Of a stretch of DNA of 56,895 nt, positions 36,485 to 56,794 are shown one piece after another; positions within the stretch are counted from its first letter, which is position 1, and each line of letters opens with the position of its first letter. The position numbers were made by a program, and so were the translations under genes. The notes beneath the pieces are model-generated. The model did no database searches and had not been told where the DNA came from. It worked only from the letters and a program-made list of their open reading frames with translations. The DNA is from an uncultured Alphaproteobacteria bacterium (GTDB taxonomy: Bacteria > Pseudomonadota > Alphaproteobacteria > Rhodobacterales > Rhodobacteraceae): the NCBI GenBank assembly GCA_902573735.1, contig CACGLH010000009.1:1-56895 (forward strand), written 5' to 3'.

Positions 36485-36576
36485 TAGTACTTGTTTATGA
36501 CAGGCTTTAGTTTTTGGGGTACCCTCAAGGATATGTCTTAGGGGTGGATGACATGTGTGAAATGTGTGACATCTTG
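36485..36576 (+). repeat. Dispersed intergenic repeat R1, copy 1
   Basis: Core TTTTTGGGGTACCCTCAAGG, then ATATGTCTTAGGGGTGG and three near-identical 9-mers (GACATGTGT, GAAATGTGT, GACATCTTG). It sits in the divergent spacer between the ALDH gene and the GFA gene. All R1 copies have the same orientation. Confidence 0.85.
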
Positions 36577-36708
36577 TTGTGAAAATTGACCAACTGCCAC
36601 TTTTACTGCCCCCTTTTGCTTATTTTCCCTATATTTTTCATTTTACAAAAAACAATTTCTGGTCGTATAATTTACTGAAAGTAAGTTTCAGAGATGGAGG
36701 AAAACCCA

Positions 36709-37158
36709 ATGAAATATAGTGTAAAGTGCCATTGTGGTGAAATAACTATTGAGATGGAACATGACCCTATGATGCAGTTTATGTGTCATTGTTCTATATG
36801 CCATCAAAGAATTGGAACTTCTATTTCTGCTTTAGCTTGGCCGGAACATGAAATTAATATTTCAGGAAATTTGAAATCTTATAAGATAGTTGGTGGTAGC
36901 GGGATGGACATGTATTACTATTATTGTCCATCTTGTAGTTGTTTTATATATAATAAACCTGACCTCCTTGAAGGAATGGCATATGTACCTGCAGGACTAT
37001 TAGGAGATAAAATAGAATTTAAACCAACCGTTGAATTATGGTCAGACAACAGACCGCGTTGGATGCAAAAAGCTCCCTCCATAATCGAGTCTTTCAGCGA
37101 TAATGGAACTTTAGAGAGACTTCAAGAGTTATTAGAAAATCTAGATCAAAGAGAATAA
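36709..37158 (+). CDS. GFA-family (glutathione-dependent formaldehyde-activating-like) zinc protein
   Basis: A 149-residue protein with the GFA zinc-site pattern: Cys-His-Cys-Gly near residue 8, Cys-His-Cys-Ser-Ile-Cys-His near 33, and Cys-Pro-Ser-Cys-Ser-Cys near 85. A structural and a catalytic zinc are expected from the family. An earlier ATG at 36694 exists, but GGAGG lies ideally for the ATG at 36709. The family includes S-hydroxymethyl-glutathione synthase and many uncharacterised members. Confidence 0.88.
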   Translation: MKYSVKCHCGEITIEMEHDPMMQFMCHCSICHQRIGTSISALAWPEHEINISGNLKSYKIVGGSGMDMYYYYCPSCSCFIYNKPDLLEGMAYVPAGLLGDKIEFKPTVELWSDNRPRWMQKAPSIIESFSDNGTLERLQELLENLDQRE

Positions 37159-37264
37159 TTTAATAAAAATTTATACTTACTTATAAAAGGCTTTTGGGTT
37201 TGAAAGAAAATATGTTTTTGATAGTTTTCGAAAGATAGTAGTAACACTATAAAAGCAAGTAGGT

Positions 37265-37390
37265 ATTTCAGAGAATTTAGCAGCCGATATGATAGGGCAT
37301 CAGAAGCCAAGGATTACTTATGGTCTCTATAGTAGTGGTTTATCACTCGAACAAAAGTTGAAACTAATAAATTCAATTAACTATTATTAA
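37265..37390 (+). pseudogene. C-terminal remnant of a tyrosine recombinase
   Basis: This 41-codon stretch without a start reads Ile-Ser-Glu-Asn-Leu-Ala-Ala-Asp-Met-Ile-Gly-His-Gln-Lys-Pro, then Thr-Tyr-Gly-Leu-Tyr-Ser, Leu-Ser-Leu-Glu-Gln-Lys-Leu-Lys and a TAA. It matches the conserved His and the Tyr nucleophile region of phage-type integrases; box I and the rest are gone. Confidence 0.75.
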
Positions 37391-37426
37391 TCAATAATTT
37401 ATAGTAATTATTAAAATAAAAAATAG

Positions 37427-37640
37427 ACATACTAAGAAATATAAAAGATTTTTCTATCTAATTGAGGGAATTATTTTCCATCCATATAAGATCATCATCT
37501 AACATTTTTGAAATAATTTTTGGATTGCTAAAGAACACTAAAGCATATCTAATAAAATATCTCTCGCATTGTGCATTTGGGTTACTCATTCTTTATGGGA
37601 AGCACAGAGGAAAGCAATTGAAAAATATGCTTTGTGGAAA
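37427..37640 (+). repeat. Composite intergenic repeat (R6-R5-R4)
   Basis: Three blocks recur 10 kb away in the same order but separated: R6 at 37427-37468 (also 47063-47104), R5 at 37499-37546 (also 47710-47757), R4 at 37561-37632 (also 48813-48881). Here they are contiguous and directly precede a small orphan gene. The rest of the 37.16-37.66 kb spacer holds the recombinase remnant. Confidence 0.65.
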
Positions 37641-37660
37641 TTAAAATGAAGGAGTTTACA

Positions 37661-37945
37661 ATGAAATTTTTATCTACATTTGAAATAACTAAAGGCTTTG
37701 ATAGGTGGCTACATCTTGTTGATGTAGAGTTAAAACCATTAATGGATCAGTATAAACTTAAAGTACATTTTGCATGTACAAATGATGAAGAAACTAAAGT
37801 ATATGATTTAAGTGAAGCTGAAGAACCTAATTTAATATCTGCATTCTTAGCAGATAAGGAAGTTGAGAGTTTAAGAACTGAAGCAGGTGTTAATTTAATT
37901 AGCCATGAAACATTGTCATCAGTAAGTAAATACAAAATTTGGTAA
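37661..37945 (+). CDS. Small orphan protein, family C copy 1 (DUF3764-like)
   Basis: A 94-residue protein with Ile-Thr-Lys-Gly-Phe-Asp-Arg-Trp near the N-terminus, a central Asn-Asp-Glu-Glu-Thr-Lys-Val-Tyr turn and Glu-Ala-Gly-Val near the end. The two similar proteins are at 37999 and 54086. The pattern resembles the small marine DUF3764-type proteins, from memory. ATG 37661 has GAAGGAG at good spacing; the upstream in-frame start at 37634 does not. Confidence 0.78.
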   Translation: MKFLSTFEITKGFDRWLHLVDVELKPLMDQYKLKVHFACTNDEETKVYDLSEAEEPNLISAFLADKEVESLRTEAGVNLISHETLSSVSKYKIW

Positions 37946-37998
37946 CAGTTGTGAGTGATGCTATAGTGTTTAATATTTTATAAAAATGGAGAAATAAT

Positions 37999-38283
37999 AT
38001 GCCTAGTATGTTAGTTACAGTTAAAATTTCAAAGGGTTTTAAGACATGGACAGAAATGGCTAAGTCTTTTGAAGACGAAGTTGGGGAAAAAGGAGCAAAG
38101 ATAGTTTGGGCTGCTGCTAACCCGGACGAAACTTCAGTATATGTCATGATGGATGTACCAGATCCAGAATTTATGAAAACTTTTGGAGAAAGACCAGATG
38201 TAGTAAAAAGAAGAGAGGAAGCAGGAGCAGATGTTTCTTCAACAACTATAATTACACAGATTGGAGATTATTGGTTAGGATAG
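37999..38283 (+). CDS. Small orphan protein, family C copy 2 (DUF3764-like)
   Basis: A 94-residue paralog in tandem with the previous gene, 53 bases after it. Shared are Ile-Ser-Lys-Gly-Phe-Lys-Thr-Trp, Asn-Pro-Asp-Glu-Thr-Ser-Val-Tyr-Val, and Glu-Ala-Gly-Ala-Asp-Val-Ser. The pair is a local duplication that has diverged strongly. Likely co-transcribed; function unknown. Confidence 0.8.
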   Translation: MPSMLVTVKISKGFKTWTEMAKSFEDEVGEKGAKIVWAAANPDETSVYVMMDVPDPEFMKTFGERPDVVKRREEAGADVSSTTIITQIGDYWLG

Positions 38284-38371
38284 TTAGGTAATGCAATTAA
38301 GTGAGTAGCTATAAGATGCTTAGTATTCTTAAGTATTTTGAAAATAATCTTATTATATAATAGAGGACTTT

Positions 38372-39844
38372 ATGGACGCTATAGATCAACTGATCAGTTT
38401 TAATAGAACGACTGGTTTACTTCAATCCGTAGCTGCTAGAAATGCATGGGATCAGGAGACAATTATGCCATCTAAGAGTGGCAATTCTCGGGCAATGGAG
38501 ATGGGTGCACTTGAGGAAGTCATTCACGATAGAAAGAAAAATTCAAAAGTCAGAAAGTTATTGGAAGAAGCCGAACCTAAAACAACTTTTCAAAAAAGAG
38601 TATACACTCTAATAAAAAGAGACTTTGAAAAAGCGATAGCTATACCGAACAAACTCGCCTCTGATTTGGCTGCAACTACATCCTTAGCTCAAATGGCCTG
38701 GCAAAAGGCTAGACAAAATAATGATTTTTCTGAGTTTTCACCTCACTTAAAGAAGGTAATTGATTTAAAGAGAGAAGAGGCATCCCTTTTATCTCCGAAT
38801 GGAGATTTGTACGATGGGTTAATAAATGATTACGAATTTGGAATGACAAAAAAAAAGACTGCCAGTATTTTTGAAGAAATGAAGCCAAGACTTCTAGATT
38901 TGAGGAAGAGAATAAGTGAAACAAAGCTTTCTAAACCAGTATTAAAAGGCGACTTCAATACGGAAAAACAATTAAAACTCGCCCATGAAATAGCGAAGAT
39001 ATTTTTCTATGATTTTGATAGAGGAAGGATTGATACTGTAGCGCATCCTTTTTGTTCAGGTGGTGGAGATGATGTGCGAATTACTACCCGAGTCGATAGC
39101 AAGGACCCATTTAACTGTTTATACAGTACTATTCACGAAGTGGGACACGCGTGCTATGAACAAAACGTTTCTCCAGACTTTTTACACTCACCTCTTGGCT
39201 CTGGCATATCTTTAGGTATTCACGAAAGTCAGTCTAGGATATTTGAGAACCAAATAGGAAGATCTAGGCAATTCACAAAGTGGCTGTTCAAAAAAATGAA
39301 AAGCTATTTTGGAGAATTTGGTATTAGAGATGAGGAAGAATTCTACCGTTTGGTTAATAATGTTGAAACTGGTTTTATAAGAACCGAAGCAGACGAAGTT
39401 CACTACAATCTACATATTATGCTTCGCTTTGAGCTTGAAGTAGAGGTGATTGGAAAAAATGTGGAAGTTCCTGATTTGCCGGAAGCATGGAATGCAAAAT
39501 TCAAGGATTATTTTGGTCGTGATGTAGAAAAATTCTCCGATGGTGTTCTCCAAGACGTTCATTGGTCAATCGGCGCATTTGGATATTTTCCAACCTACAC
39601 TTTAGGTAACTTAAATGCCGGATGTTTTTTTGAAAAGATGCAAAAAGATATCCCTAGTCTTACAGACAAATTTGTGAATGGTGATGTGTCATTAGCAACC
39701 ACTTGGTTAACAGAGAACATACATCAGCATGGAAGCCTATACGAACCTGCTGAATTAATAAAAAAAGCTACAGGAAAGGACTTTACTCCTGAGCCATTTT
39801 TAAATTATTTAGATGAAAAATTTTCTGATATATATGATATCTAA
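38372..39844 (+). CDS. M32-family metallocarboxypeptidase (Taq-type)
   Basis: A 490-residue protein with His255-Glu-Val-Gly-His259 and the M32 signature His284-Glu-Ser-Gln-Ser-Arg, plus Ile-Arg-Thr-Glu-Ala-Asp-Glu. All-helical, normal length, no signal peptide, so it is likely a cytosolic carboxypeptidase. It is richer in GC than the flanking spacers. Its 3' end abuts the yajQ remnant on the other strand. Confidence 0.93.
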   Translation: MDAIDQLISFNRTTGLLQSVAARNAWDQETIMPSKSGNSRAMEMGALEEVIHDRKKNSKVRKLLEEAEPKTTFQKRVYTLIKRDFEKAIAIPNKLASDLAATTSLAQMAWQKARQNNDFSEFSPHLKKVIDLKREEASLLSPNGDLYDGLINDYEFGMTKKKTASIFEEMKPRLLDLRKRISETKLSKPVLKGDFNTEKQLKLAHEIAKIFFYDFDRGRIDTVAHPFCSGGGDDVRITTRVDSKDPFNCLYSTIHEVGHACYEQNVSPDFLHSPLGSGISLGIHESQSRIFENQIGRSRQFTKWLFKKMKSYFGEFGIRDEEEFYRLVNNVETGFIRTEADEVHYNLHIMLRFELEVEVIGKNVEVPDLPEAWNAKFKDYFGRDVEKFSDGVLQDVHWSIGAFGYFPTYTLGNLNAGCFFEKMQKDIPSLTDKFVNGDVSLATTWLTENIHQHGSLYEPAELIKKATGKDFTPEPFLNYLDEKFSDIYDI

Positions 39845-40085
39845 TCTCTAAAATTTATAAATTGTAGAGGTAGATGTAAATCTAGTTTTTTTGCTAACGA
39901 AATAACTTCCTGAAGGCTATTTTTCCTTTGGCCTGAAACCCTAAACTCATTACCCTGTAATTTTACCTTTATTATAACTTACTATGCATTAAAGAAGAAA
40001 TAATTTTCTTTGATGTGTCTTGTACTATCCCTTCTAGCAAATCATAGGATTGCCTCACTCTATTACCTGCAGCGCTTCCATAGAT
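39841..40085 (-). pseudogene. yajQ remnant (3' half)
   Basis: Read on the minus strand in shifting frames, this gives Tyr-Gly-Ser-Ala-Ala-Gly-Asn-Arg-Val-Arg-Gln, then Gly-Ile-Val-Gln-Asp-Thr-Ser-Lys-Lys-Ile-Ile-Ser-Ser-Leu. Next comes Lys-Leu-Gln-Gly-Asn-Glu-Phe-Arg-Val-Ser-Gly-Gln-Arg-Lys, and finally Leu-Pro-Leu-Gln-Phe-Ile-Asn-Phe-Arg-Asp-stop. The last residues match the classic YajQ (nucleotide-binding, DUF520) C-terminus. A stop and frameshift occur near 39979 and a stop near 40088, and the N-terminal half is absent. Confidence 0.75.
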
Positions 40086-40144
40086 TTATCCAAGGGGATA
40101 TAATAATTCAAAAATTATTATCTGAAAATATTAAAAATGTAAAC

Positions 40145-40172
40145 CTTCCCCACCCAAAATTTGTGAGTAGGA
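40145..40172 (+). repeat. R1 repeat, partial copy
   Basis: CCCCACCCAAAATTTGTGAG is the same 5' end seen in the R1 copy at 50072; the rest of the element is missing or degraded. Confidence 0.6.
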
Positions 40173-40233
40173 TATTTACCTATATCACTGCTTCGACTTT
40201 CGACCCCCCCCCACCTCTCAGGATGGTCCACAT

Positions 40234-40256
40234 AGTCCACTAGTCCACAGGTAACC
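40234..40256 (+). repeat. 23-bp direct repeat flanking the split cyclase, left
   Basis: AGTCCACTAGTCCACAGG followed by TAACC; recurs at 42206-42228 with one mismatch. Both copies are followed by similar ACAAA-type / ACTTTAATT sequence. Confidence 0.75.
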
Positions 40257-40332
40257 CTACGTCTACAAACTTTAATTGGACTGCTTATAATCTTTGTGTA
40301 ATCATAAACGTTGTCTAAGTTATAGAATTTTT

Positions 40333-42183
40333 ATGCCAAATAAAAAAATAAATCGTAAAATTGCAGTAATTTTTGCAACTGATGTGGTTGGTTATAGTAA
40401 GCATATGGAGGCGAATGAAAGCGAAACCATAGTCAACCTCCGCGAATGCGAGGCTATTTTAAAAGGACTATTTTCAAAATATGAAGGACGTTTATTTAAT
40501 ACAGGAGGGGACTCATTTCTCGCTGAATTCCCCAGTGCAGTATCAGCCGTTGAGTGTGCGGTAGAATTTCAGAATGCAATTAAAGAACGTAACTCGAATG
40601 ACGATCCGAGTGTCAAATTAGATTTCCGTATCGGCATTAATTCTGGCGATGTAATTATAGAAAAAGAGAACTTGTTGGGAGACGGAGTTAACATAGCAGC
40701 CAGACTTGAGGCACTATCTCAAACAGGTGGTGTAACAATTTCTAAATCTATCCACGATTTTGTAAAAGGCAAAACAAAGTTTGAGTTTAATGATGTTGGA
40801 CTGCAAAAGGTAAAGCAAAACGAATTTCATGCATTTGATATCTTGTTAAAAGGATCGCAGAAGCGAAAATCTCAAAAATCAGTCGGTAAAAATAAAAACC
40901 TAATAGTGATTGCTCCATTAACGGCTCTTTGCGTGATTGCTGTTAGTATTTTTTATTAAAATTTCTCCTCCAGACAAACGAGAGAAATTGAGAAAAGTAA
41001 TATAGTTTCAAACAAACCAATAATTTTAGTCAAACCATTTTCATCTAGTAGCGAAAATGATGACTTAGCAAGCCAAGCAATTACAGAAAGCTTGATCTCA
41101 AGCCTATCACAGTATGGTGGTGTCAGAACACTGGCTAGTAGCACATCATACTCTGTCAAACAGAAAGCCTACTCTGATGCTGATCTTATGGAAAAATTCG
41201 GCGTAGACTTTGTCGTGTCAGGTTCGATACAAACCTTTGGAACAAACTCCCGTCTTTTTGCAGAAGTTTCTGATTTAAAAACAAATCAGGCACTGATGTC
41301 TATTAAAGAAGACTTTAAACTTGAACAAATATTTGATGTTCAGGACAAAATAGGCAGAAGAATTTTAGAAAAAATTCAAGTAGAAGCCGTCGAAGGTACA
41401 AAAGCAATAGCCTCTAAGAATGATTTTAAAACTTATGAACAGTATCTGCTTTCAATTAACCATGATGTAGAATGGAGAAAATGGACTAAAGAGGGGAATT
41501 CAACTGCATTTGAAATTACTGAAAAATTGAAAGAATTAAACGTCGACAAATACGTAATAGAAAATCTAGAAGTATGGAACATCCACCAAAATATATTGCT
41601 TGGACACTCTGCAAACCCTGAAGTTGACAAAGCAATAATGTTAGAATTGTCAGATAATTTAGTTTCCAAAAGAGGAAGGGATGATGATTACTTAATAAGA
41701 GCAATAATTGAACTGGAGCATTTTGAAAAAAATTGTGAATATGCTACGGATCTATTAAACAGAATTGCAGATCCCAGTGCCGATACTAATAACTTTATTG
41801 CTTCTGGCTTCATTCATAGTAGATGCACAAATTTAGAAAAAGCTGCAGAGTCATTCCGCCAAGCATTAGTACTTGAACCCGTAGATCTGGGCTATCAAGT
41901 CACAAGAATGTATTCAGGAATTCTTTATGCATTGAATGAATATGAGCTTCTTAAAGAACTATTGGAACCGCTACTTCCTGATCCAGATTTATTGGGTATG
42001 CCCTTTTGGTTCTTCGCGGCAGTACTTTCAGAAGAGGGAAGAGAGGATGAGGCGAGAAAGTATTATGAATTAGGTATTACTTATGGCGCTGATGAAAAGT
42101 GGATAATGCCGATGCTTAATACGCAAGAAGCGTCCGATAGGCTCCTACGTAATCTTTCAGATTATCTGAACCCATCTAATTAA
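40333..42183 (+). pseudogene. Class III cyclase with TM and TolB/TPR-like sensory half, split by in-frame stop
   Basis: The gene starts at ATG 40333, has the cyclase domain (Asp17, Asp60 metal ligands; Asn56 where ATP-selecting Lys is usual), a TM helix near 190-208, then TAA at 40957. Past that stop the same frame continues without further break to 42183. The continuation includes Lys-Pro-Ile-Ile-Leu-Val-Lys-Pro-Phe, a Gly-Val-Asp-Phe-Val-Val-Ser-Gly-Ser-Ile beta-sheet block and TPR-like helices. The whole architecture is the same as the intact paralog at 50258-52111. Either a nonsense mutation ended it or the two halves are made separately; a start with GTG/ATG follows at 41092. GC content is above local average. 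Confidence 0.8.
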
Positions 42184-42205
42184 TTCAGATCTCAATGCCT
42201 TTTCT

Positions 42206-42228
42206 AGTCCACTAATCCACAGGTAACC
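42206..42228 (+). repeat. 23-bp direct repeat flanking the split cyclase, right
   Basis: Partner of 40234-40256 (one mismatch, G to A). Together the pair brackets the cyclase gene just after its stop. Confidence 0.75.
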
Positions 42229-42380
42229 ACACCACACCTCAAAATACCCCGACTTACTCACAAAGACTTTAATTTTGATCAATTCGTTTGCTACGAGTAT
42301 AGCATCATATCTTGCATGATTTTCAACTTTGGTTACTATGATATTAAATTTGGAGACGTAAATGGATACGCACATGAAAA

Positions 42381-42560
42381 ATGATGACCATAATAACTGT
42401 ATGCGTTGTTGTAGTTACCTTGTTGCTAGTTGGCAGCTTGATATTCGATGGCCATGACCACTACGACGAGCATGATTACGGTTATGTTGAAGAATTATAT
42501 GAAAAGTTAGAATATATTAGCCAGTGTATTAATGAACTAGAAAAACGTTTAGAAGAGTAA
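42381..42560 (+). CDS. Small single-pass membrane protein (59 aa)
   Basis: ATG-ATG start, then a strongly hydrophobic helix over residues 3-22, a His/Asp/Tyr-rich linker (Asp-Gly-His-Asp-His-Tyr-Asp-Glu-His-Asp), and a heptad-like coiled coil (Leu-Tyr-Glu-Lys-Leu-Glu-Tyr-Ile). It could bind metal through the His/Asp cluster (inference). Upstream Shine-Dalgarno is weak. It lies between the cyclase remnant and the FAD oxidoreductase. Confidence 0.55.
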   Translation: MMTIITVCVVVVTLLLVGSLIFDGHDHYDEHDYGYVEELYEKLEYISQCINELEKRLEE

Positions 42561-42599
42561 TACTATGGTAACCACGCTAGCAATCGCTCACTAATTAGT

Positions 42600-43748
42600 A
42601 TGACTTCAATGGAAAATATTGTTGTGATAGGTGCTGGCGTAGTTGGACTGTCTTGCGCTTATAACCTTCTGAAGAGCGGCGAAAAAGTAACCCTGCTGGA
42701 AAGAGATCGTCCGGGTTGTGGGCAGTCCACGCGAACTGGTGGCGGTATACGCTACCTACATGGAACCCAAGAAAACATCAGCATGTCATTCTTGAGTGAA
42801 CTATTTTGGAAGAATTTCGAAAGCGAATTCAATGTCGACATCAATTATCAGACAACTGGACATCTTTTCCTGACTTCAAACCGTCAAAAGTCTGAAGAGT
42901 TATGCAGTAGTGATCAGAATGGTATACTAAATTTGAGTGCTTTAGATAGGAGGCAAATTAAAACTAAGTGGCCTTATTTATGCCAGCTTTTTCAAGATTA
43001 TGGAGTTTACTGTCCTATTGGTGGGTATTTAGATCATCAAAAAGTTATTGATGGTCTAGTTTCAGGTTTTCATAGATTGGGGGGAAAACTGCGAGAGGGA
43101 GTTGAAGTAAATACGATTTCTTTAATGGATAATTCCAAATACCGCATAAACTCTTCAGACGGGATAATTGAAGCAAATATTATAATTAATTGTGCCGGCG
43201 CACATGCGGGCCAGTTTGCAAGATACTTGAAAGCTGAGCAATCCTTCACATCAAGACATCATGAGTTGTTGATAGTCAGGCCAAGGAAACCCTTTCCAGA
43301 GAACTGTCCATGGCTAATCGACATAGATAACCAAGTTCATACTAGGCCTGACGGGGCTGGCAAAGCCTTAGTTGGTGGCTTTCTCGGTAATAATGAAACG
43401 ACGGAGCTTCAGGAATATGATTTCCCAATTTCGGAGGATTGGAAACAGCGAGTTCTTATTGCGGCAGAAAGGTCATTTGGGCTTATTGACTGTAATTCGG
43501 AAGTTCTTGAACATTGGGGCGGACTGTATCCAGGCACTTTAGATTATCAGCCAGTTATAGAGGAAGAAAAACCTGGGCTCTTTACGGCTGCAGGCTTTTC
43601 AGGAACAGGTTTAATGCACGCACCAGCTGCAGGGTTAATCATCAAAGATCTAGTTAAATTCGGAAAGAGTGAAAAAATTAATCTCGCAGCATTTAGCTCG
43701 AAGAGATTTGAAACACTCAAAAGCGTATCTGAAAAGACTGGCTTTTGA
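42600..43748 (+). CDS. FAD-dependent amine/amino-acid oxidoreductase (DAO family)
   Basis: A 382-residue protein. The Rossmann motif Val-Ile-Gly-Ala-Gly-Val-Val-Gly-Leu-Ser with Leu-Glu-Arg-Asp binds FAD; Gly-Gly-Gly-Ile-Arg follows. The C-terminal Gly-Phe-Ser-Gly-Thr-Gly-Leu-Met-His-Ala-Pro loop matches the sarcosine oxidase beta subunit / D-amino acid oxidase superfamily. It probably oxidises a secondary or primary amine. Noticeably higher GC than the Region 1 genes; no heterosubunits nearby. Confidence 0.88.
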   Translation: MTSMENIVVIGAGVVGLSCAYNLLKSGEKVTLLERDRPGCGQSTRTGGGIRYLHGTQENISMSFLSELFWKNFESEFNVDINYQTTGHLFLTSNRQKSEELCSSDQNGILNLSALDRRQIKTKWPYLCQLFQDYGVYCPIGGYLDHQKVIDGLVSGFHRLGGKLREGVEVNTISLMDNSKYRINSSDGIIEANIIINCAGAHAGQFARYLKAEQSFTSRHHELLIVRPRKPFPENCPWLIDIDNQVHTRPDGAGKALVGGFLGNNETTELQEYDFPISEDWKQRVLIAAERSFGLIDCNSEVLEHWGGLYPGTLDYQPVIEEEKPGLFTAAGFSGTGLMHAPAAGLIIKDLVKFGKSEKINLAAFSSKRFETLKSVSEKTGF

Positions 43749-43928
43749 CTAATGAAAATTTAGATTGGATATCATAATGTTGGGCTACTGAGCTTGGAGA
43801 ACAGTATGAATAATTTTGCTGTTAAAAAAGCCCTCTTTAATAACGAAGTTAGCAGTAAAATGTTTCCCCTGTGTTTCCCCAGACAAAAATAGATTTTTGA
43901 TAAAAAGGCTAAGTTATTAATATTGTAA

Positions 43929-43972
43929 TGCCTCCAGAGAGACTCGAACTTCCCGACCTCACTGATTACAAA
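43929..43972 (-). tRNA. Degenerate 3' fragment of tRNA-Thr(TGT), probable attachment-site scar
   Basis: On the minus strand: TTTGTAATCAGTGAGGTCGG then GAAGTTCGAGTCTCTCTGGA and GGCA. This is an anticodon loop TTTGTAA, variable loop, T arm with TTCGAGT and a 3' acceptor strand; the 5' half is absent and there is one extra base in the T-stem. The fragment cannot be a functional tRNA. Such 3' ends are the usual footprint left by integrases. Confidence 0.7.
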
Positions 43973-44023
43973 TTCTTTTATCCAAATTCATATTACTAGA
44001 TAATATCAGTAGTCCCGAATACT

Positions 44024-44170
44024 AAAGTGGTGGGTACCTCAGGGGTATGGCTTACCCTACCCCCTGAATGAATCCAGTTTGACTTAGGAGAGTCATATCG
44101 TCTGTTCTGAATGGTATTGAGGCTAGATGGAATTACGGGGCTTTTGAGGATTTTTAAAAGCCTTTATAGT
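44024..44170 (+). repeat. R1b repeat, copy 1
   Basis: GGTGGGTACCTCAGGGGTAT onward, through GAGAGTCATAT and CTGTTCTGAA, matches 55455-55580 in order with scattered mismatches. It shares the GGTACC-centre with R1 but has a different tail. Confidence 0.65.
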
Positions 44171-49289: not shown

Positions 49290-49301
49290 TTATTAGAAGG
49301 T

Positions 49302-49366: not shown

Positions 49367-49400
49367 ATCCTAGGGGGTATCTTTAGGGTAACTTTAGAAC

Positions 49401-49532: not shown

Positions 49533-49566
49533 TTGTTCATCGTAAACTCTTCAAAAACTTTAAAGG

Positions 49567-49882: not shown

Positions 49883-49966
49883 ATGGCAATTAATTTAATT
49901 GATCCAGCATTAAAAGAAATTCATAAGGCTGAAATTAAAAGTTATTTTGAAACCTGGCTTTATTAG
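49883..49966 (+). pseudogene. Truncated relative of the 18451 family
   Basis: A 27-codon frame with GTGGAGGTAAT before its ATG ends in Glu-Ile-Lys-Ser-Tyr-Phe-Glu-Thr-Trp-Leu-Tyr-stop. This is similar to the start of the 139-residue protein at 18451. The good ribosome-binding site suggests recent truncation. Confidence 0.45.
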
Positions 49967-50071
49967 TCATTACATATATAAAACCAGACATATAACTTAT
50001 ACCCTATCTAAACTTTTTCATTAGAATAATATTACATGAAATATCTTATGTGTGAAGATTAGAGATATTTA

Positions 50072-50171
50072 CCTACCCCACCCAAAATTTGTGAGCAGTA
50101 GTACTTGCTAATAATAGGCTATGGTTTTTGGGGTACCCTCAAGGATATGTCTTGGGGGTGGGTATTGTGTT
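50072..50171 (+). repeat. R1 repeat, full copy
   Basis: CTACCCCACCCAAAATTTGT, GAGCAGTAGTACTTGCTAAT, AATAGGCTATGG, TTTTTGGGGTACCCTCAAGG and TGTCTTGGGGGTGGGT in order. It is the most complete copy and lies between a convergent gene pair. Confidence 0.88.
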
Positions 50172-50257
50172 TGTTCAATACCTTTATATCTCCTTTTCAA
50201 AAACTATATAGAAAGTCTTTAGGCTTTTTTAATATTGTCAGGATTAATAAAAAAAAA

Positions 50258-52111
50258 TTAATCAAAATAACTTATTTCTAATAATTCTTTAATCGTTTCT
50301 TTTCTTATTTTTTCGTCAATAATCTGGCTTTCTAGATATGTTTTAGTTAAGCCATTTTTGATGGACCTATCCAAATAACTCTTTGCTAAATCATTTTTAC
50401 CGTTTCTTTTTGCTAAAACAGCATATATTGCTAAAATCCTTGAATCTATATCAACTGAGTTTATTTTATCTCCAACAATATTATAAATTTCCTCTATTCT
50501 ATTTACTTGATATAAAATAGTTACTAACCCACCAGTAATAACCCAATTTGTATCATTAGGAACTATCATAATCGCCTTTTTTCTTGAAGATATTGCTTTT
50601 TCAAGTTTGTCGCACCTAAAATAAACCATTGCTCCAATTGTAAGTGTATCTATGGTGGAAGAAATTTTCTCAGCAGTATCTATATCCTTCACTGCAGATT
50701 TACAGTCTAAATCTAATAAAGTTAAACCTATCATTGCTCTGGCATTATAAGGGTCAGGACTATTTGGTAAAAGTTTTAAGCTCTTTTCAAGAGCTAGTTT
50801 AACTTTCATCTTATCATCTTCTATGTTTTGACTTAATTTAAGGCTTATTTTTTGCCAAAATTGCCATGCCTCCATTAGATAAATCATACCAATTCTATCA
50901 TTTGCATCCTCATAATTTCTGCTGATTTCATTTAATATTTTTTCAGCGTTATAATGACTCTGTTCTGAAAATTTTCGAAGTTCGTTTCTCCAATTTAGAA
51001 ATTTTGAAAATTCATCTAAAGAGTTAAAATTACTGGACCAATTGGAACCCTGTTTTTCTCCTACCCCTAGACCTATTTGTAATTCATCTAGTATTGTGTT
51101 GCTCATTTTATCTTGAACTGCAAAAATATTATCAAGATTAAAATCTTCCTTTTTAGATATAACTATCTCTGAACTGTCTATATCAGTTATTTCCAAATTT
51201 AGCCTAGCGTTTTGACCCATGACCTGCATAGATCCCCTAATGATGTAATTTACTCCATAATTATCTGCCAAAGATTGATCATTCATATTTTCTTTTTGTG
51301 CATGATAGCTAGTATCACTGGATAAAACTGTAATTGCACTATAACCATTTAGTGTTGAAATCATACTTTCAGTAACACCATTAGCAAAACCTACTTGATT
51401 TTCGGAAAGCCCAGTAGTTTTAATGGGTGAAACTAAAATAATTGGTTTTGAAGTTTTATTAACAACATCATTTTTATTTGTGAATTGGGATGTATAAAAA
51501 TAACTTATAATCCCAATAATGATGAAAGAAGCTACAAGAGCTAGAATTGTTTTATTTGATTTTTGGGTTTTAAGTTTTCTTTTTTGAGATGGATCAAGCA
51601 GAATATCATATGCATGAAATTCATTCTTTTTTACCTTTTGAATACCTAAGTCATTATATGTAAAGTCTGTCTTGCCTTTGATAAAATCATATACTGCCTT
51701 AGAGATTGTTATTCCATTAGTTTGAGCCAAAGCCTCTAATCGTGCTGCTATATTAACGCCATCACCTAACAAATTGTCTTTATCTTCGATAACATCGCCA
51801 GTATTGATACCTATTCTAAATTCTAAAGGTATAGTAGGATTACCTGAAGTATTTCTTTTCTTTATCTGCTCTTGAAAAGAAACAGCACATTCAACTGCTT
51901 CCACTGCACTTGGAAATTCAATTAAAAAAGAGTCTCCTCCTGTATTAAAAAGTCTTCCTTTATGATTTTTAAAGGTTTTTGTGAGTATTTGTTCACAAGC
52001 TTTTAAATTCTGTACAGTTTCTTTTTCATTAGTCTCCATATGTTTACTATAACCCACTACGTCAGTGGCTAGGATCACAGCAATCTTTCTATCAACACTA
52101 TCTGAAGACAT
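50258..52111 (-). CDS. Class III cyclase with TM and TolB/TPR-like C-terminal half
   Basis: A 617-residue protein. The cyclase domain is N-terminal (Asp17, Asp60; Asn56 in place of Lys). A transmembrane helix is near residues 188-208, then a Pro-Ile-Ile-Leu-Val-Ser-Pro-Ile block and Tyr-Ile-Ile-Arg-Gly-Ser-Met, and finally TPR-like repeats. Asn and Arg in Val-Asn-Ile-Ala-Ala-Arg are present. The C-terminal half is probably outside the membrane and may sense ligands. Intact paralog of the split gene at 40333. Substrate specificity uncertain because of the Asn. Confidence 0.88.
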   Translation of the reverse strand: MSSDSVDRKIAVILATDVVGYSKHMETNEKETVQNLKACEQILTKTFKNHKGRLFNTGGDSFLIEFPSAVEAVECAVSFQEQIKKRNTSGNPTIPLEFRIGINTGDVIEDKDNLLGDGVNIAARLEALAQTNGITISKAVYDFIKGKTDFTYNDLGIQKVKKNEFHAYDILLDPSQKRKLKTQKSNKTILALVASFIIIGIISYFYTSQFTNKNDVVNKTSKPIILVSPIKTTGLSENQVGFANGVTESMISTLNGYSAITVLSSDTSYHAQKENMNDQSLADNYGVNYIIRGSMQVMGQNARLNLEITDIDSSEIVISKKEDFNLDNIFAVQDKMSNTILDELQIGLGVGEKQGSNWSSNFNSLDEFSKFLNWRNELRKFSEQSHYNAEKILNEISRNYEDANDRIGMIYLMEAWQFWQKISLKLSQNIEDDKMKVKLALEKSLKLLPNSPDPYNARAMIGLTLLDLDCKSAVKDIDTAEKISSTIDTLTIGAMVYFRCDKLEKAISSRKKAIMIVPNDTNWVITGGLVTILYQVNRIEEIYNIVGDKINSVDIDSRILAIYAVLAKRNGKNDLAKSYLDRSIKNGLTKTYLESQIIDEKIRKETIKELLEISYFD

Positions 52112-52212
52112 TTATTTCACCTTAATAATTCAGAGAATCTCTATTTTTAAAGATGACTTATAACAAATAATTTGAAAAGGGTATTAATAAAAACTTTTTT
52201 TGTCATAATATT

Positions 52213-52305
52213 TAAGCAGTAGTACTTACTAATAATAGGCTATGGTTTTTGGGGTACGGATATGTCTTAGGGGTGGGTGACATCTATGACATGTGTTACA
52301 TCTTA
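52213..52305 (+). repeat. R1 repeat, copy
   Basis: AGCAGTAGTACTTACTAATA, TAGGCTATGG, TTTTTGGGGTACGGATATGT and AGGGGTGGGTGACATC. It lacks the CCTCAAGG part, so a small internal deletion occurred. The 9-mer tail (GACATCTAT, GACATGTGT, TACATCTTA) is clear. Confidence 0.85.
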
Positions 52306-52383
52306 ATAAGAAAAATCCAAATCGTTCCACTCTATTAATACTACTTCCTTATTAAATCTGATTTTTTTAAATATCATCCCTAT

Positions 52384-53019
52384 TTAATCCCTTTTTTCTT
52401 TTACCTCATATATTTTGGTACCATCTCGGGAAGAAATTGTTGGATTTACACCTAAATCAGTACCTTTCCAAATCGCCAATGCTAAGAGAAAACCATTAGT
52501 CATTTTTGTCCAATGTTTTTCATTTGATTTGTGGATCACAATATCACCAACACTAGCAATCTTTTTTCCATTACGCTCAGACCAAAATAATGCGGAACCA
52601 GCAAGAGGTACATACGCCTCCTCGGCCTCATGCCAATGCATTTGATAATCCAAATTTTCTCCCCAAAAGCCTATCATTATTCTGGTGCTGTTAATAAAAA
52701 ATGGGCCATTTGGACCAATTAAATCAAACCATCCATACCTTTTTATAAAATCAGGGCCAACTTCATTTTCAGAATAAGTCGTATTCCATTTCAATTCATA
52801 ATTTGCTCTAATTATGCAATCTAAAATGTTCTTAGTCTTTGGAAATTTCGGCGCACTAATTTTATTCACAAGTTTTTGGACAGGCTGCTTTTGAGGCAGC
52901 ATTGATTTATATCTCAAATTCTTGGAAATTCTGCCACAAAATCCCAATATATCATCTCTTGAGTTACAAAACTCTACAACATTATCTTTCAAACTAGTAA
53001 GATTTTTTGATACTTCCAA
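52384..53019 (-). CDS. dddQ: DMSP lyase, DddQ-like cupin
   Basis: A 211-residue protein whose cupin core has His128, His130, Glu134, Tyr136 (Met-His-Trp-His-Glu-Ala-Glu-Glu-Ala-Tyr) and His169. The spacing His-x3-Glu-x-Tyr ... His matches the metal and catalytic set of DddQ as I remember it. Val-Pro-Leu-Ala-Gly-Ser-Ala-x-Phe-Trp follows. It would cleave dimethylsulfoniopropionate to DMS and acrylate. No acrylate-degrading gene is adjacent; R1 repeats lie on both sides. Confidence 0.82.
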   Translation of the reverse strand: MEVSKNLTSLKDNVVEFCNSRDDILGFCGRISKNLRYKSMLPQKQPVQKLVNKISAPKFPKTKNILDCIIRANYELKWNTTYSENEVGPDFIKRYGWFDLIGPNGPFFINSTRIMIGFWGENLDYQMHWHEAEEAYVPLAGSALFWSERNGKKIASVGDIVIHKSNEKHWTKMTNGFLLALAIWKGTDLGVNPTISSRDGTKIYEVKEKRD

Positions 53020-53106
53020 TATAAACCTTTGAATTTTATTCTAGTTTCTGCCACAAGAAATTATATTACATGAAATTTCATATCTGAAAAGACACGAAGA
53101 ACGCTC

Positions 53107-53226
53107 CCTACCCAAACCAAAATGTGTGGACAGTAATAACTACTAAAATAGGCTATGGTTTTTGGTTTACCTACCCTCAAGGATATGTCCTAGGGGTAGA
53201 TGTCATAAGTGTCATAACTGTCATAT
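53107..53226 (+). repeat. R1 repeat, copy
   Basis: CCCAAACCAAAATGTGTGGA, CTACTAAAATAGGCTATGG, ACCCTCAAGGATATGTCCTA and a 9-bp tail (GTCATAAGT, GTCATAACT, GTCATATTG). The tail keeps the period but not the sequence of other copies. The rest of 53.02-53.55 kb holds no gene. Confidence 0.85.
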
Positions 53227-53549
53227 TGGAAATGAAAAGTTAAAAAAGTACACCCTAAAGTCCACCTTGTATCTCTTCAAGAGTATCAACCATCTTCTGG
53301 TCATTCTTATCAAAGAAGTGCGCATAATAGGACATGTTCTGAAACAAATTTGTATTATAAATATCTTGAAAAGAACTTAAAATTATTGTAGTTATCATTT
53401 CGTTGCAGGGGGGAACAACATGCAGAACCTAGACTCGAGTAGTCACTGCAACACCAACTTTTTTAAAAGAAATTATTTTTTAATTGCCATAAATTAGCAA
53501 AGTAATATTATTTTCGTAACTTTGTTATTATTAAGAGACCTAATTTAAT

Positions 53550-53891
53550 TTGTTGAAAAGTATATTTCCATATTTAGTATTAATACTAGCAGTAATATGT
53601 GGAACTGCATCTAATTCTTTTGCAAATAGTGCAAACGGTTTTACTAAACTAATTCCTTCAATCTACAGTATTATAACTATCATATTATGTATGTACCTAT
53701 TGTCTCAAGTAATGAAATTCCTGCCAGTAGGTATTACTTATGCTACGTTTGCTGGGTTATGTATTATTGGAACTTCTTTTGTTGGAATAATAAAGTTTAG
53801 TCAAATACCTAGCGTTTCAACAATAATAGGTTTGATGCTTATAGTATCAGGTGTTTTAATAGTAAATTTATTAGGTAATGACCAAATTTAA
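53550..53891 (+). CDS. SMR-family small membrane protein lacking the essential glutamate
   Basis: A 113-residue, four-helix protein aligning with EmrE along its length (Gly-Phe-Thr-Lys-Leu-x-Pro-Ser, Leu-Pro-Val-Gly-Ile-Thr-Tyr-Ala, Ile-Ile-Gly-Leu-Met-Leu-Ile-Val-Ser-Gly-Val-Leu). It starts TTG-TTG. The membrane Glu14 of EmrE is replaced by Val (Leu-Ala-Val-Ile-Cys-Gly-Thr), and the Trp63 region reads Thr-Phe-Ala-Gly. It may not be a proton-coupled drug exporter. Confidence 0.82.
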   Translation: MLKSIFPYLVLILAVICGTASNSFANSANGFTKLIPSIYSIITIILCMYLLSQVMKFLPVGITYATFAGLCIIGTSFVGIIKFSQIPSVSTIIGLMLIVSGVLIVNLLGNDQI

Positions 53892-53921
53892 ATAAATAAA
53901 TGGTCTTTGGAATAGTAACTC

Positions 53922-54033
53922 CAAAACCAAAACAAATGAGCAGTAGTACTTTCTAACAATAGGCTATGGTTTTTGCTGTGCCCTCAAGGTTATGTCTGGG
54001 GGTGGGTGACATGTATGACATGTGTGACATCTT
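53922..54033 (+). repeat. R1 repeat, copy
   Basis: GAGCAGTAGTACTTTCTAAC, AATAGGCTATGG, TTTTTGCTGTGCCCTCAAGG and GGGGGTGGGTGACATGTATG, with the 9-mer tail. It lies between convergent genes. Confidence 0.85.
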
Positions 54034-54085
54034 TTGATGAAATTTAATATCTTAAAAGATTATCTCTTCTTAAAAGTACAGTTTT

Positions 54086-54361
54086 TTAATCACTACAAAG
54101 AGTAATTACATTAGCTTCTGGGCTAGGATCACCACCAGCTTCAGCAATTAATTCAGCTTCATTTTCCATGTGTTGTTGTAATACATCCATGCTAGGGGTA
54201 TACATAACTACGTGTATCGTATTAGAATCTTCTAATTCATGTCCTCTGTAAATTGTTTTAATTCCATATTTTGTATCTCTAAGTTCTTCAGCTTGGTCAT
54301 ATACATTAACCCAATGTTCATATCCTTTTGTTATTTTCCCCTTGATTACTAAAGTAGGCAT
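54086..54361 (-). CDS. Small orphan protein, family C copy 3 (DUF3764-like)
   Basis: A 91-residue paralog of the genes at 37661 and 37999: Ile-Thr-Lys-Gly-Tyr-Glu-His-Trp, Tyr-Gly-Ile-Lys-x-Ile-Tyr-Arg-Gly-His, Glu-Ala-Gly-Gly-Asp-Pro-Ser. GGAGGATTTTC precedes the ATG. Of the three copies this one looks most like the marine DUF3764 type as I remember it. Confidence 0.82.
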   Translation of the reverse strand: MPTLVIKGKITKGYEHWVNVYDQAEELRDTKYGIKTIYRGHELEDSNTIHVVMYTPSMDVLQQHMENEAELIAEAGGDPSPEANVITLCSD

Positions 54362-54471
54362 ATTGAAAATCCTCCACAGATAATTGTTTTAAGAATTAAT
54401 TCTCATTTTAATATTATTTTAAAAAAAGTTTAACACAAAAAATGAATTACCGAACGTAATCCTTTATATCT

Positions 54472-54566
54472 ATCCCAAACCAAAATGTGTGTGCAGTAGC
54501 ACTTGCTAATATTAGGCTATTGTTTTTGGGTACCTACCCCCAAGGATTTATCTTAGAGGTAGGTGT
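54472..54566 (+). repeat. R1 repeat, copy
   Basis: CCCAAACCAAAATGTGTGTG, CAGTAGCACTTGCTAATATT, AGGCTATTG, TTTTTGGGTACCTACCCCCA and AGGTAGGTGTTG. The rest of the 54.36-54.72 kb spacer is AT-rich with no gene. Confidence 0.85.
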
Positions 54567-54716
54567 TGTATTAGTTATGTTCAAACCAAAAAAATTTAAT
54601 TTTAATTTAAACTTTTCATCCTATTTTTATAATTAAGAAGAGAGGCAAGAATGGCTGTTAGTAAATTAACTATTATACCATTTATACTATCTATAATTAT
54701 AACATTGTGAAAGTTA

Positions 54717-55151
54717 TTAACTGTCATTTCCAAAGTTTATTTTTGGTCCCCAAATTGTACCAAGCACTATTACTAGAAACAGAATGACAAATGCTAATAT
54801 TGGCATATCATTAAAAAGTCCCCTAGTAACTATATCATTTCCTGAAAGTCCTGATTGTTCGACCCAGTTGGCTGCAAATGTAGATAATTCAATACCATTA
54901 TCCCTTGCTTTAGCCAAATAAGTAGCCGTTACATCATTCCAAAAATGTCTATAGGACTGTACATCAAGAATAAAAAATCCAGTCATTACTCCGAAAATTG
55001 AATATATAACTTTTCCTGCTATATGTGTGCCTTGCGAAAATCTAGCAACTCTTAGCGCTATAAAAAAAAGTATAATAGTTAGTACGCTATAAATCCCTAC
55101 TGTTATCTGATTACCATTGTTATAAGCTAAAATATTTAGTTCTTGTTCCAT
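54717..55151 (-). CDS. Integral membrane protein, unknown function
   Basis: A 144-residue protein with three hydrophobic helices (about residues 15-35, 45-62, 115-135) and a soluble loop of about 50 residues between the second and third, containing Tyr-Arg-His-Phe-Trp. No family recognised. Confidence 0.7.
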   Translation of the reverse strand: MEQELNILAYNNGNQITVGIYSVLTIILFFIALRVARFSQGTHIAGKVIYSIFGVMTGFFILDVQSYRHFWNDVTATYLAKARDNGIELSTFAANWVEQSGLSGNDIVTRGLFNDMPILAFVILFLVIVLGTIWGPKINFGNDS

Positions 55152-55390
55152 TATTTATTCCCCCTAAATTTTGAATTTTTTTATGATTGTTTTTTAAAAG
55201 AGTTAGGTAATAATTGAATTTCTAAAATCTACCTATACTTGCTAAAGCTAGCTCAACTAATAGAGTAAAATATTACGTTGGCAGGAACCAATACCTGACG
55301 TAAGATTTTATTTTGAATGCGTAAATTTTGATTTTAATTTATCTAATTTCAAACTTGTTGAGTTATATTTGAATTTAAAAAATAGAAAAA

Positions 55391-55580
55391 CCAACCCACC
55401 CCAAACCAAAATGTGTGAGCAGTAGTACTTGCTAATAATAGGCTGTTGTTTTTGGGGTACCACCAGGGTATGGGTCACCCCAACCCCCTCAGAGACTCTA
55501 GCAAGCCCCAGGAGAGTCCTATTGGCTGTTCTGAAAGGGTATTTGAGTCTAGTGGGAATTAAGGGGTTTATGAGGTGTAA
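55391..55580 (+). repeat. R1 joined to R1b
   Basis: The R1 head (CACCCCAAACCAAAATGTGT, GAGCAGTAGTACTTGCTAAT) runs to TTTTTGGGGTACC, then switches to the R1b body (GGGTATGGGTCACCCCAACC, GGAGAGTCCTATTGGCTGTT). This shows the two families are modules of one element. Confidence 0.85.
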
Positions 55581-55589
55581 AATTTATAA

Positions 55590-55756
55590 CGGAATGGCGT
55601 TTTGCAGAATTAGGCGAAAAAGAGTTTATGGCTTGTATGAATGTTACTGAAATGGAAGAAATGGGTGCGTTTATGAACAGCCCAGAAGAATTGCAGTGGG
55701 ACAAAGATAACGGTTGTAAATACACTGTTTACGGTATGGAAGAAATGACCGAATAG
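55590..55756 (+). pseudogene. Truncated family B gene
   Basis: This stop-terminated frame without its start reads Glu-Trp-Arg-Phe-Ala-Glu-Leu-Gly, Met-Gly-Ala-Phe-Met-Asn-Ser, Gln-Trp-Asp-Lys-Asp-Asn-Gly-Cys and ends with TAG. It matches the last two thirds of the 16609-16869 protein. The R1b repeat sits exactly where the N-terminal third should be, so the repeat may have caused the truncation. Confidence 0.75.
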
Positions 55757-55897
55757 TCTCCATGCATAATTAAATAGCAAAAATCAAACTAAAATTAAAT
55801 TTTGGAGCTTAAAATATGATTTTGAGCTTGTAATAATTATTTAACTTTGGCAGTTAGTTCATAAACAGAACTAAGTTAACCTACTCAGGAGATTTAT

Positions 55898-56269
55898 ATG
55901 ACACCAAAAGAAATTGTTGCTAAGAATTATGAGTGTTTTAATACTGGTGATATGGAAACATTTGTTTCCCTATATCATGACGATGTAACAATAACCCTAA
56001 ATGGGATGCACCGGTTTTCTGGTGTGCATCAAGGCATTAACGCTTGGATGAACGTCCTATCACAAATTCCATCCCGATACGATAATTTTAGTGTTACTCC
56101 AGTAAACATGATTGCGGAAGGTGACCAAGTATTTACCCAAATCCATGCAAAGGCTGACGGTTTGGAGGCAGATTTTGGACACTTTCACAAAATTGTTGAT
56201 GGAAAGATTAAGGAATTTTGGGTTTATGATGATAGCCAAAAGATGGCACATGTCATGAAGGCTGTGTAA
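55898..56269 (+). CDS. SnoaL/NTF2-like protein
   Basis: A 123-residue protein with Phe-Asn-Thr-Gly-Asp-Met-Glu-Thr-Phe-Val-Ser-Leu-Tyr-His-Asp-Asp-Val, Asn-Met-Ile-Ala-Glu-Gly-Asp-Gln-Val and Gly-His-Phe-His-Lys-Ile-Val-Asp-Gly-Lys-Ile-Lys-Glu-Phe-Trp. This is the SnoaL-like polyketide-cyclase fold. CAGGAGATTTAT precedes the start. Role unknown. GC slightly higher than the spacers. Confidence 0.85.
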   Translation: MTPKEIVAKNYECFNTGDMETFVSLYHDDVTITLNGMHRFSGVHQGINAWMNVLSQIPSRYDNFSVTPVNMIAEGDQVFTQIHAKADGLEADFGHFHKIVDGKIKEFWVYDDSQKMAHVMKAV

Positions 56270-56285
56270 TAAAGGAATTTGTGTC

Positions 56286-56673
56286 TCAGCACCCTTTGTA
56301 ATTCTTAGCAACGCACTCTCTAGCTAAGTCCTATGCCTTTTCTATTTGAGATGGGGTCATGTCTTTGGCTATTATATCTCTAACTTGTGCACCGTTTTTT
56401 TCACCATTTGAAGCTGTAATATTAGCCCACATATGTGCGTAAACGTAATCTTGAAGTACACCTTTTCCATTATCGTACATAATACCTAGATTATATTAGG
56501 CGTCTATATAACTTCCCTGAGCAAGAGGCTTCCATTCATTTATGGCAGTTGCACAGTCACCTTTTTTTTAGGGCTTCCACACCCTTCTAAAAATCACTAC
56601 TCCAGCCCACAACAAAGCATCCTAGAGCAAAGATTACAATATGGCGCAGAGTTTTTGTGCTTAATTTTTTCAT
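56286..56673 (-). pseudogene. Sel1-repeat gene with three Gln-to-stop changes and a frameshift
   Basis: From ATG 56673 a signal-peptide-like start runs into Asp-Phe then TAG. Restoring the frame gives a Sel1-type Ala-Leu-Lys-Lys-Gly-Asp-Cys-Ala-Thr-Ala-Ile-Asn-Glu-Trp, then Tyr-Ile-Asp-Ala-TAA-Tyr-Asn-Leu-Gly-Ile-Met-Tyr, then Tyr-Val-Tyr-Ala-His-Met-Trp. The end is Glu-Lys-Ala-TAG-Asp-Leu-Ala-Arg-Glu-Cys. All three premature stops sit where Gln (CAG/CAA) is expected, i.e. single C-to-T changes. An 8-A run near the start also shifts frame. Relative of the intact gene at 19945. Confidence 0.75.
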
Positions 56674-56721
56674 ATTAATTATCTTAAATGAATTTTTTTA
56701 TCTGAAAAAATTATAAATGCA

Positions 56722-56794
56722 TACCTTCTCCACCAAAACATATGAGCAGTATAACTTACTAATAATAGTCTTTGGTTTTCGGGGTACCCCCTAC
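56722..56794 (+). repeat. R1 repeat, degraded copy
   Basis: CTCCACCAAAACATATGAGC, AGTATAACTTACTAATAATA and GGTTTTCGGGGTACCCCC keep the layout but carry more changes; the tail is lost. Confidence 0.75.

Follow-up and report, generated by a model that had tools for sequence, protein, structure and literature searches.

R1, a probable attachment site bounding gene cassettes shared in tandem arrays within a genus of small-genome Alphaproteobacteria

We analysed a stretch of 56,895 nucleotides from an uncultured Alphaproteobacteria bacterium of the Rhodobacteraceae (assembly GCA_902573735.1, contig CACGLH010000009.1, here C9, bases 1-56,895; "the window" below), which belongs to a 1.93-Mb genome in 61 contigs that is 77% complete, and in particular a ~100-bp DNA element, R1, repeated in its right part. 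R1 is likely to be an attachment (recombination) site which bounds mobile gene cassettes in a tandem array and would be run by a tyrosine recombinase of the phage or satellite type. Sequence comparison shows that the cassettes between R1 copies recur whole across genomes in new neighbourhoods, with the change of partner inside the R1 core. An earlier inspection of the window (the sequence-only reading) had proposed a miniature mobile element, a recombination unit for gene cassettes or a regulatory RNA as possible roles of R1. The second of these has gained strong support, since cassettes recur with new neighbours, homology switches in the core and flanks are found spaced apart elsewhere.

A sequence-only model of R1 built from 22 copies, eight of them in the window, finds eight strong copies between 36,475 and 56,806 (E 1e-30 to 3.5e-18), all on the plus strand, together with a left-half fragment. 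The same-direction family of ~100-bp repeats is thus real and its coordinates had been given correctly to within some tens of bases; to the left of 36 kb there is no R1 match at E up to 0.1, as had been noted, and the position of R1 in convergent, divergent and tandem gene spacers is borne out by the open reading frames (ORFs). The supposed R1 relative at 44,024, "R1b", has no model match and relates instead to the right flank of the copy at 55,390. The sites and associated features of the window are:

36475 to 36553, plus strand: R1, left end of the array, left half degenerate, adjoining an aldehyde dehydrogenase gene (model E 2e-19); TGACAT-type repeats follow directly
37163 to 37202: doubtful weak R1 match (model E 0.006)
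40136 to 40183, plus strand: left-half fragment of R1 only (model E 0.006, model positions 4-52)
43929 to 43973, minus strand: tRNA-Thr(TGT) 3' half ending in the anticodon loop (tRNA positions 31-73; identity to the intact tRNA of contig C4 95.6%)
44020 to 44115, plus strand: "R1b", the other right-arm class, relative of 55479-55538 and not R1 core (family D13, 60 nt, 73% identical)
50065 to 50166, plus strand: R1, complete (model E 1e-30)
52185 to 52282, plus strand: R1 (model E 2.6e-23)
53100 to 53205, plus strand: R1, complete (model E 3e-22)
53201 to 53224, plus strand: three arm-type TGTCAT repeats with a 9-bp period, a repeat class read from the sequence
53243 to 53356, minus strand: integrase remnant, last ~38 codons (residues 374-411, 55% identity), 38 bp after R1 and pointing at this preceding R1
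53914 to 54011, plus strand: R1, complete (model E 3e-23)
54007 to 54030, plus strand: three arm-type TGACAT repeats with a 9-bp period, likewise a repeat class read from the sequence
54465 to 54567, plus strand: R1, complete (model E 3.2e-25)
55390 to 55471, plus strand: R1 joined to an R1b-type right arm (model E 2.3e-21)
56715 to 56806, plus strand: R1, its right flank resembling the one of the R1 copy next to tRNA-Ser in contig C16 (model E 3.5e-18)

The own genome (G000) holds 39 R1 matches at E <= 0.01, chiefly on contig C1 (255-343 kb) and on C9. A 20-mer from the centre of R1, searched with up to three mismatches, occurs at 24 places in this genome (one of them, on contig C5, is not R1 by the model) and its reversed control at none. 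Of 61 genomes 11 have R1 matches, these being the own genome and all but one of its 11 genus mates, and none of the 49 sampled genomes outside the genus has any; in three of the 10 mates (G002, G003 and G005) they are weak, with a best E of 1e-5 to 3e-10. The ground on which the sequence-only reading would have given up a functional or mobile element therefore does not apply: many further copies lie beyond the window and relatives differ in the spacing between flanks, although a conserved RNA structure did not appear. A shorter pattern of the core was found in one of 385 genomes sampled over the class, which is the own genome. The exact core 23-mer is present in 18 stretches of named records, 17 of which are uncultured Alphaproteobacteria (AG-414-O15, AG-404-G18, AG-359-I23, AG-891-A21, AH-287-M23); to judge from their naming, the AG- and AH- records are marine single cells. 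The eighteenth is a contig of a metagenome-assembled genome labelled Flavobacteriaceae (PAFO01000053.1; L113, MED818), which is perhaps misbinned.

Stretches selected for R1-like matches were fetched from relatives (20) and from the own genome (eight). With the window, and without one stretch on C5 (L015) that has no R1 by the model, the set analysed comprises 18 contigs of eight genomes. On each of its contigs the R1 hits, 154 in all, lie on one strand only (for one contig this is a lone hit), with up to 23 hits on one stretch. The 26 hits that do not reach the centre were excluded from the flank, crossover and junction analyses, which leaves 128 copies. The genomes are incomplete and array ends often coincide with contig ends; undetected or partial R1 sites can merge or split cassette intervals. 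Contig C16 of the own genome terminates within an R1 core (L013 12785-12813), so R1 repeats may break assemblies. Should the genomes come from amplified single cells, chimeric joining could disrupt individual junctions, but it would hardly yield the same cassettes with shared borders in several genomes.

The 136 intervals longer than 150 bp between consecutive R1 hits have a median length of 1.4 kb (10th-90th percentile 0.57-4.6 kb). When whole-cassette families were defined by likeness over at least 60% of both lengths at an identity of at least 70%, 70 of these intervals fell into 30 families, 29 of which span genomes, the remaining one being a pair inside the own genome. All matches within families share their orientation relative to R1, and lengths are often near equal (792-798 bp in five genomes, for example). 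Shared cassettes stand side by side in 36 occurrences, and just two types of pair are seen on more than one contig. Four consecutive cassettes of the window recur each in a different genome, every time with different neighbours:

52283 to 53099: cassette F6, with a DMSP-lyase-like cupin gene, PF16867 (52384-53019, minus strand); DMSP stands for dimethylsulfoniopropionate; recurs in G009 with other neighbours
53206 to 53915: cassette F7, with an SMR-family transporter gene (53550-53891, plus strand); recurs in G006
54012 to 54464: cassette F8, with a DUF3764 gene (54086-54361, minus strand); recurs in G008
54568 to 55389: cassette F9, with an ORF without Pfam match (54717-55151, minus strand); recurs in G010 between F29 and F0

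F29 and F0 are adjacent in G001, and the order in G010 is F29-F9-F0, with an F9 83% identical to that of the window. Similarly, F5 and F2 are adjacent in G001 and G008, and two cassettes intervene between them in G009. The one-gene cupin cassette F6 is a possible route for the spread of DMSP cleavage. Looking outward from the 128 copies, we found the left flank elsewhere for 87 and the right flank for 85. Both flanks lie on one contig within 8 kb in 24 directed comparisons: eight have the same spacing (four reciprocal pairs) and 16 have 805-7,795 bp between the flanks.

Linkage of the flanks was then compared between copies. Homology of at least 300 bp on the left was found for 72 pairs, of which nine were dropped for an identity of 80% or less and one for a right homology of 201 bp; on the right the figure was 69 pairs, 20 of which were dropped for identity or for a left homology of 60-299 bp. 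This gave 58 pairs linked on the left, 45 linked on the right and four linked on both sides. The family-averaged identity profile was made from pairs above 84% identity (55 left, 41 right). Mean identity in 25 left-linked families is 0.93 in the far left, 0.83-0.88 from -24 to +16 of the anchor, 0.73 from +16 to +24 and 0.54 in the far right. Along the same zones, 17 right-linked families give 0.54, 0.71-0.88, 0.74 and 0.93, and unlinked copies 0.50, 0.73-0.83, 0.72 and 0.51. Alignment of these copies thus shows homology switching partner inside the ~50-bp core of R1.

The core has the sequence CAAAATGTGTGAGCAGTAGTACTTGCTAATAATAGGCTATGGTTTTTGGGGTAC. To the right of it stands CCTCAAGGATATGTCTTAGGGGTGG, followed by as many as three hexamers (TGTTAT, TGTCAT or TGACAT) with a period of 9 bp, ~50-75 bp from the anchor. 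The density of this arm motif between +45 and +70 is 55.6 per kb for the 54 copies (out of 128) whose right end is GGGGTGG-like and 32.8 in all 128, compared to 1.7 over all stretches. Thirty of the 37 copies with two or three phased repeats carry one allele throughout, where a fraction of ~0.35 would be expected for two random repeats. We take these repeats to resemble the P'1-P'3 arm sites of lambda attP. With its core, its arm-type direct repeats and an adjacent integrase gene, R1 resembles a phage attachment site in predicted layout. The complementary segments ACCCCAAA and TTTGGGGT, from which the sequence-only reading had drawn a fold, can be paired on paper for some copies, and the pairing is not conserved. 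RNAalifold gives no consensus pairs for 22 R1 copies, and the DNA of 60 sampled copies out of the 128 folds no better than its shuffles (mean z-score -0.33 for the top strand and -0.41 for the bottom strand). A regulatory RNA is consequently unsupported. A riboswitch or other RNA was also sought with Rfam at its gathering threshold, which reports only a glycine riboswitch at 6.7 kb in the window.

An intact tyrosine recombinase gene of 411 amino acids (PF00589, PF14659, phrog_1) lies 263 bp beyond the R1 copy at 265,415 on C1 and points at it; what we take to be the R-K-HxxR-H-Y residues can be read by eye in its translation. It is the one intact integrase gene in the fetched arrays, and the arm repeats next to it belong to the TGTCAT class. 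The C1 interval between the R1 copies at 254,987 and 265,415 holds two ORFs without family (270 and 155 amino acids), HTH_36, AAA_25 and an RTX protein of 1,944 amino acids; this integrase-bearing interval also gives a weak HTH_17 match below cut-off and no conjugation family among the ORFs scanned, and the element looks satellite-like. A tblastn search with this integrase over all stretches gave 22 hits at E <= 1. Seventeen of them, the gene included, lie 28-403 bp beyond the right end of an R1 copy on the opposite strand, most being some 25-90 codons of the 3' end. Five hits do not fit: G006:C3 has two (same strand, 3 kb off), G008:C22 has one at its end, G009 has one that precedes its first R1, and the one in G010 is 939 bp away. 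This positional link makes a phage-type integrase the best candidate for the recombinase. Over the class the integrase was found at E <= 1e-45 in one of the 385 sampled genomes, again the own genome. A pattern search of IMG/VR found no integrase relative and no R1 core, and all phage and plasmid records compared (1287 and 327) are less than 60% identical to the integrase, the best among the matches listed reaching 25-29% and including Streptococcus satellite phages.

Further evidence comes from junctions with chromosomal genes. In five R1 copies (two on G000:C1 and one each in G001, G008 and G011) the left half is replaced by the 3' half of tRNA-Thr(TGT). In four of the five the alignment stops at tRNA position 31-33, within the anticodon loop or at its edge, which is a place typical of integrases. 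In G001 the alignment runs on to position 23, which makes that joint ambiguous, and since two of the five share their left flank at most four are independent. Other partners adjoin three further long tRNA-Thr fragments, one of which lies in the window; two more matches are short. The fragment in the window (43929-43973) is probably an old attachment junction, and R1b stands ~50 nt after it. This second right-arm class (CAGGGGTATGGCTTACCC / CAGGGTATGGGTCACCCC) is seen in the window at 44020-44115 and 55471-55560 and in stretch L014 at 2610-2650, ~200 bp past an intact tRNA-Thr; it is perhaps the site of another integrase. Whole tRNA genes also occur near R1, a tRNA-Thr on C4 at a distance of 5 kb from a copy and a tRNA-Ser(TGA) on C16 at ~150 bp. 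Cassette family F2 (G001:C1, G008:C2, G009:C3) opens directly after R1 with what may be a different tRNA's 3' end, in the sense direction (GGTCGTAGGTTCGAATCC...). The gene recO stands at the right end of the array in all five stretches that hold it, and the site beside it has a core in G000, G001 and G011 and the right part only in G009 and G010. With a 70-nt probe that covers the 3' end of recO and sequence downstream of it, 26 places match, 25 in the direction of R1; 22 of the 26 are 47-79 bp after an R1 end, and of the 22 four are recO itself, 10 lead into integrase sequence and eight into other DNA.

A mechanism can be proposed on this basis. A tyrosine recombinase of phage or satellite type, encoded by the integrase-bearing members of the family, would act on R1 in trans and would join a circular cassette with one R1 to a resident R1, which would produce two direct R1 copies. 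The core would be the site of strand exchange and the right side, with its up to three 9-bp repeats, would provide P'-like arm sites for the integrase. In lambda attP the arm sites are followed by the integrase gene, which points at the attachment site; here, similarly, the integrase gene would stand just beyond the arm repeats and point at R1. The anticodon loop of tRNA-Thr and the 3' end of recO would be former chromosomal targets. Most cassettes are without integrase or have its 3' end only, and would therefore be non-autonomous passengers.

Several observations weigh against this view. The action of the integrase and the circular form of the cassettes are what we infer from sequence. The crossover can be limited only to about -24 to +24 of the anchor, and single pairs disagree. 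A change-point fit (29 left and 21 right pairs among 88 gaplessly aligned copies) places the break at -23 for left-linked pairs and at +26 for right-linked ones, as though the core went with neither of the flanks; the ungapped alignment and one over-represented family contribute to this split, without explaining it away. Cassette order within four steps is not above chance (six ordered pairs, shuffled mean 4.9, with 184 of 500 shuffles as high), so that differences such as F29|F0 versus F29|F9|F0 fit insertion or loss and are not proof of single events. Of the 133 right ends of R1, just 15 are followed within 450 bp by an integrase remnant (E < 1e-3). Integrases whose target is a gene end carry the 3' end of that gene, and the recO 3' tail lies between the arms and the integrase in 10 of the 17 integrase places, so the target of these integrases may be the 3' end of recO, with R1 as a secondary site, or else R1, with the recO tail carried along. 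Genes like those of the Xer recombinases are present in the genome (the names XerC and XerD being inferred from length and family match). Finally, one of eight weak hits on contig C1 of G005 is reversed (E 2.8e-4); on C12 of the same genome two weak R1 hits 63 kb apart have opposite directions.

The strongest of the other explanations, which we nevertheless consider unlikely, is that R1 is a mere conserved spacer repeat and that RecA-dependent homologous recombination shuffles the genes, with no dedicated recombinase. The scatter of single-pair breakpoints over the core and the ~72-83% identity of unrelated copies there would fit it. Against it stand the shortness and divergence of R1, the fixed place at which phased arm repeats and the 3' ends of integrase genes accompany it, and the joints of the tRNA-Thr halves in the anticodon loop or at its edge, which by the rule cited above is a position typical of integrases. 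Less probable again is recombination of R1 by the host XerC/XerD, as in the dif modules of Acinetobacter. The Xer-like genes of the genome agree with it, and the accounts of pdif/dif modules that we could draw on in part describe gene modules bounded by tyrosine recombinase sites and shuffled as units, similarly to the cassettes here. However, the dif sites of Acinetobacter are 28-bp Xer sites in alternating orientation, whereas R1 copies are ~100 bp long and direct, and have arm repeats and integrase sequence linked to them.

That the array is an integron, with R1 as attC and IntI lost or unseen, is very improbable. The textbook case of single genes stocked as cassettes is the integron, and the likeness to chromosomal integrons and superintegrons is considerable: small cassettes in long arrays, a single site for each cassette, all sites in one direction, cassettes shared and reordered between species, and a fixed chromosomal end (here recO). 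The reading is strongly weakened by the search for the integron integrase, as the TIGR02249 cut-off was passed in none of 12 genus genomes, where Xer-like and phage-type integrases fall below it; 11 of the 12 are less than 90% complete, which leaves room for an unseen IntI. R1 forms no hairpin on either strand, genes lie in both directions (in 102 cassettes the longest ORF runs 41 times along and 61 times against the site direction), and the site has phage-type arm repeats and adjacent phage-type integrase sequence. By two tested features, IntI and a folding attC, the R1 array is not an integron. Least credible is the view of R1 as a dispersed element of gene spacers, either a miniature transposable one or a regulatory RNA; the intergenic position, ~100-bp length and many copies of R1 would suit it but it is contradicted by the single orientation on each contig, by flanks that reassort at the core, by the lack of conserved pairs and by the lack of R1-less empty sites: if R1 were an inserted element some relatives should show the flanks adjoining without it, and none of the 24 comparisons within the fetched, R1-bearing stretches did so or had a shorter spacing; the self-hopping element of the sequence-only reading is likewise without support.

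With R1 regarded as an attachment site used by a phage-type integrase, the nearest parallels are other elements bounded by att sites. In tandem accretion of integrative and conjugative or integrative and mobilizable elements, and in cis-mobilizable elements (CIMEs), elements that have lost their integrase retain att sites and accumulate in tandem at a single target through site-specific recombination, as far as the part of PMC5704250 that we used describes them; they are few, with up to six copies of SGI1 in that same part. R1 arrays are CIME-like in having direct att-type sites at both ends and in having mostly lost their own integrase, and differ from what is described there in their up to 23 R1 hits per stretch and in their units, 1.4 kb long at the median, each of which recurs on its own in different genomes. 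The additive genomic islands of "Ca. Methylopumilus" and the tycheposons, likewise from pelagic bacteria with small genomes, are variable islands beside tRNA genes, with a repeat equal to the last 20 nt of the tRNA in the additive island and a tyrosine recombinase in the tycheposon (PMC10872708, in its available portion); set against that portion, R1 is a separate ~100-bp bipartite site that bounds each small cassette. The ssrA island of Dehalococcoides is likewise a site-specific island at one chromosomal gene (PMC3146451, part of the text; likened by description, not by sequence). Among the matches listed from the open-licence literature in PubMed Central, judged by title and the start of the abstract, there is no description of an R1 cassette system. 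By these analogies R1 arrays would be classed with att-bounded tandem elements, integron-like and tandem-accretion-like in their working.

The window has some further features. The glycine riboswitch aptamer (RF00504) lies at 6695-6781 on the plus strand (E 5e-12). An ORF of 2,437 amino acids at 24129-31442 (minus strand) has IgA-peptidase M64 and RTX matches and contains 300-bp stretches at 25259 and 29114, 3,855 bp apart and 100% identical, with others at the same offset, which reflect a recent internal duplication or an assembly effect. Two adenylate/guanylate cyclase genes, at 40294-40959 (plus strand) and 50258-52111 (minus strand), lie in different array intervals in inverted orientation and share 71-78% DNA identity.

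A wider proposal can be made, which in our judgement is about evenly balanced between true and false: that a small-genome, probably marine genus of Alphaproteobacteria has developed an equivalent of the superintegron for itself, in which recO is the platform for cassette capture, tyrosine integrases of satellite or phage type with lambda-like arm sites act in trans, and small gene units, among them a DMSP-lyase-like cupin and a transporter, are shared among species without IntI or attC. In this proposal the three alleles of the arm repeat would mark integrases of differing specificity. If true, this would be a second, independent array of a size comparable to that of integrons, with a different site and probably a different recombinase. 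It would mean that gene stockpiling can arise from ordinary phage-type integration, and it would provide a mechanism for gene exchange in uncultured bacteria.

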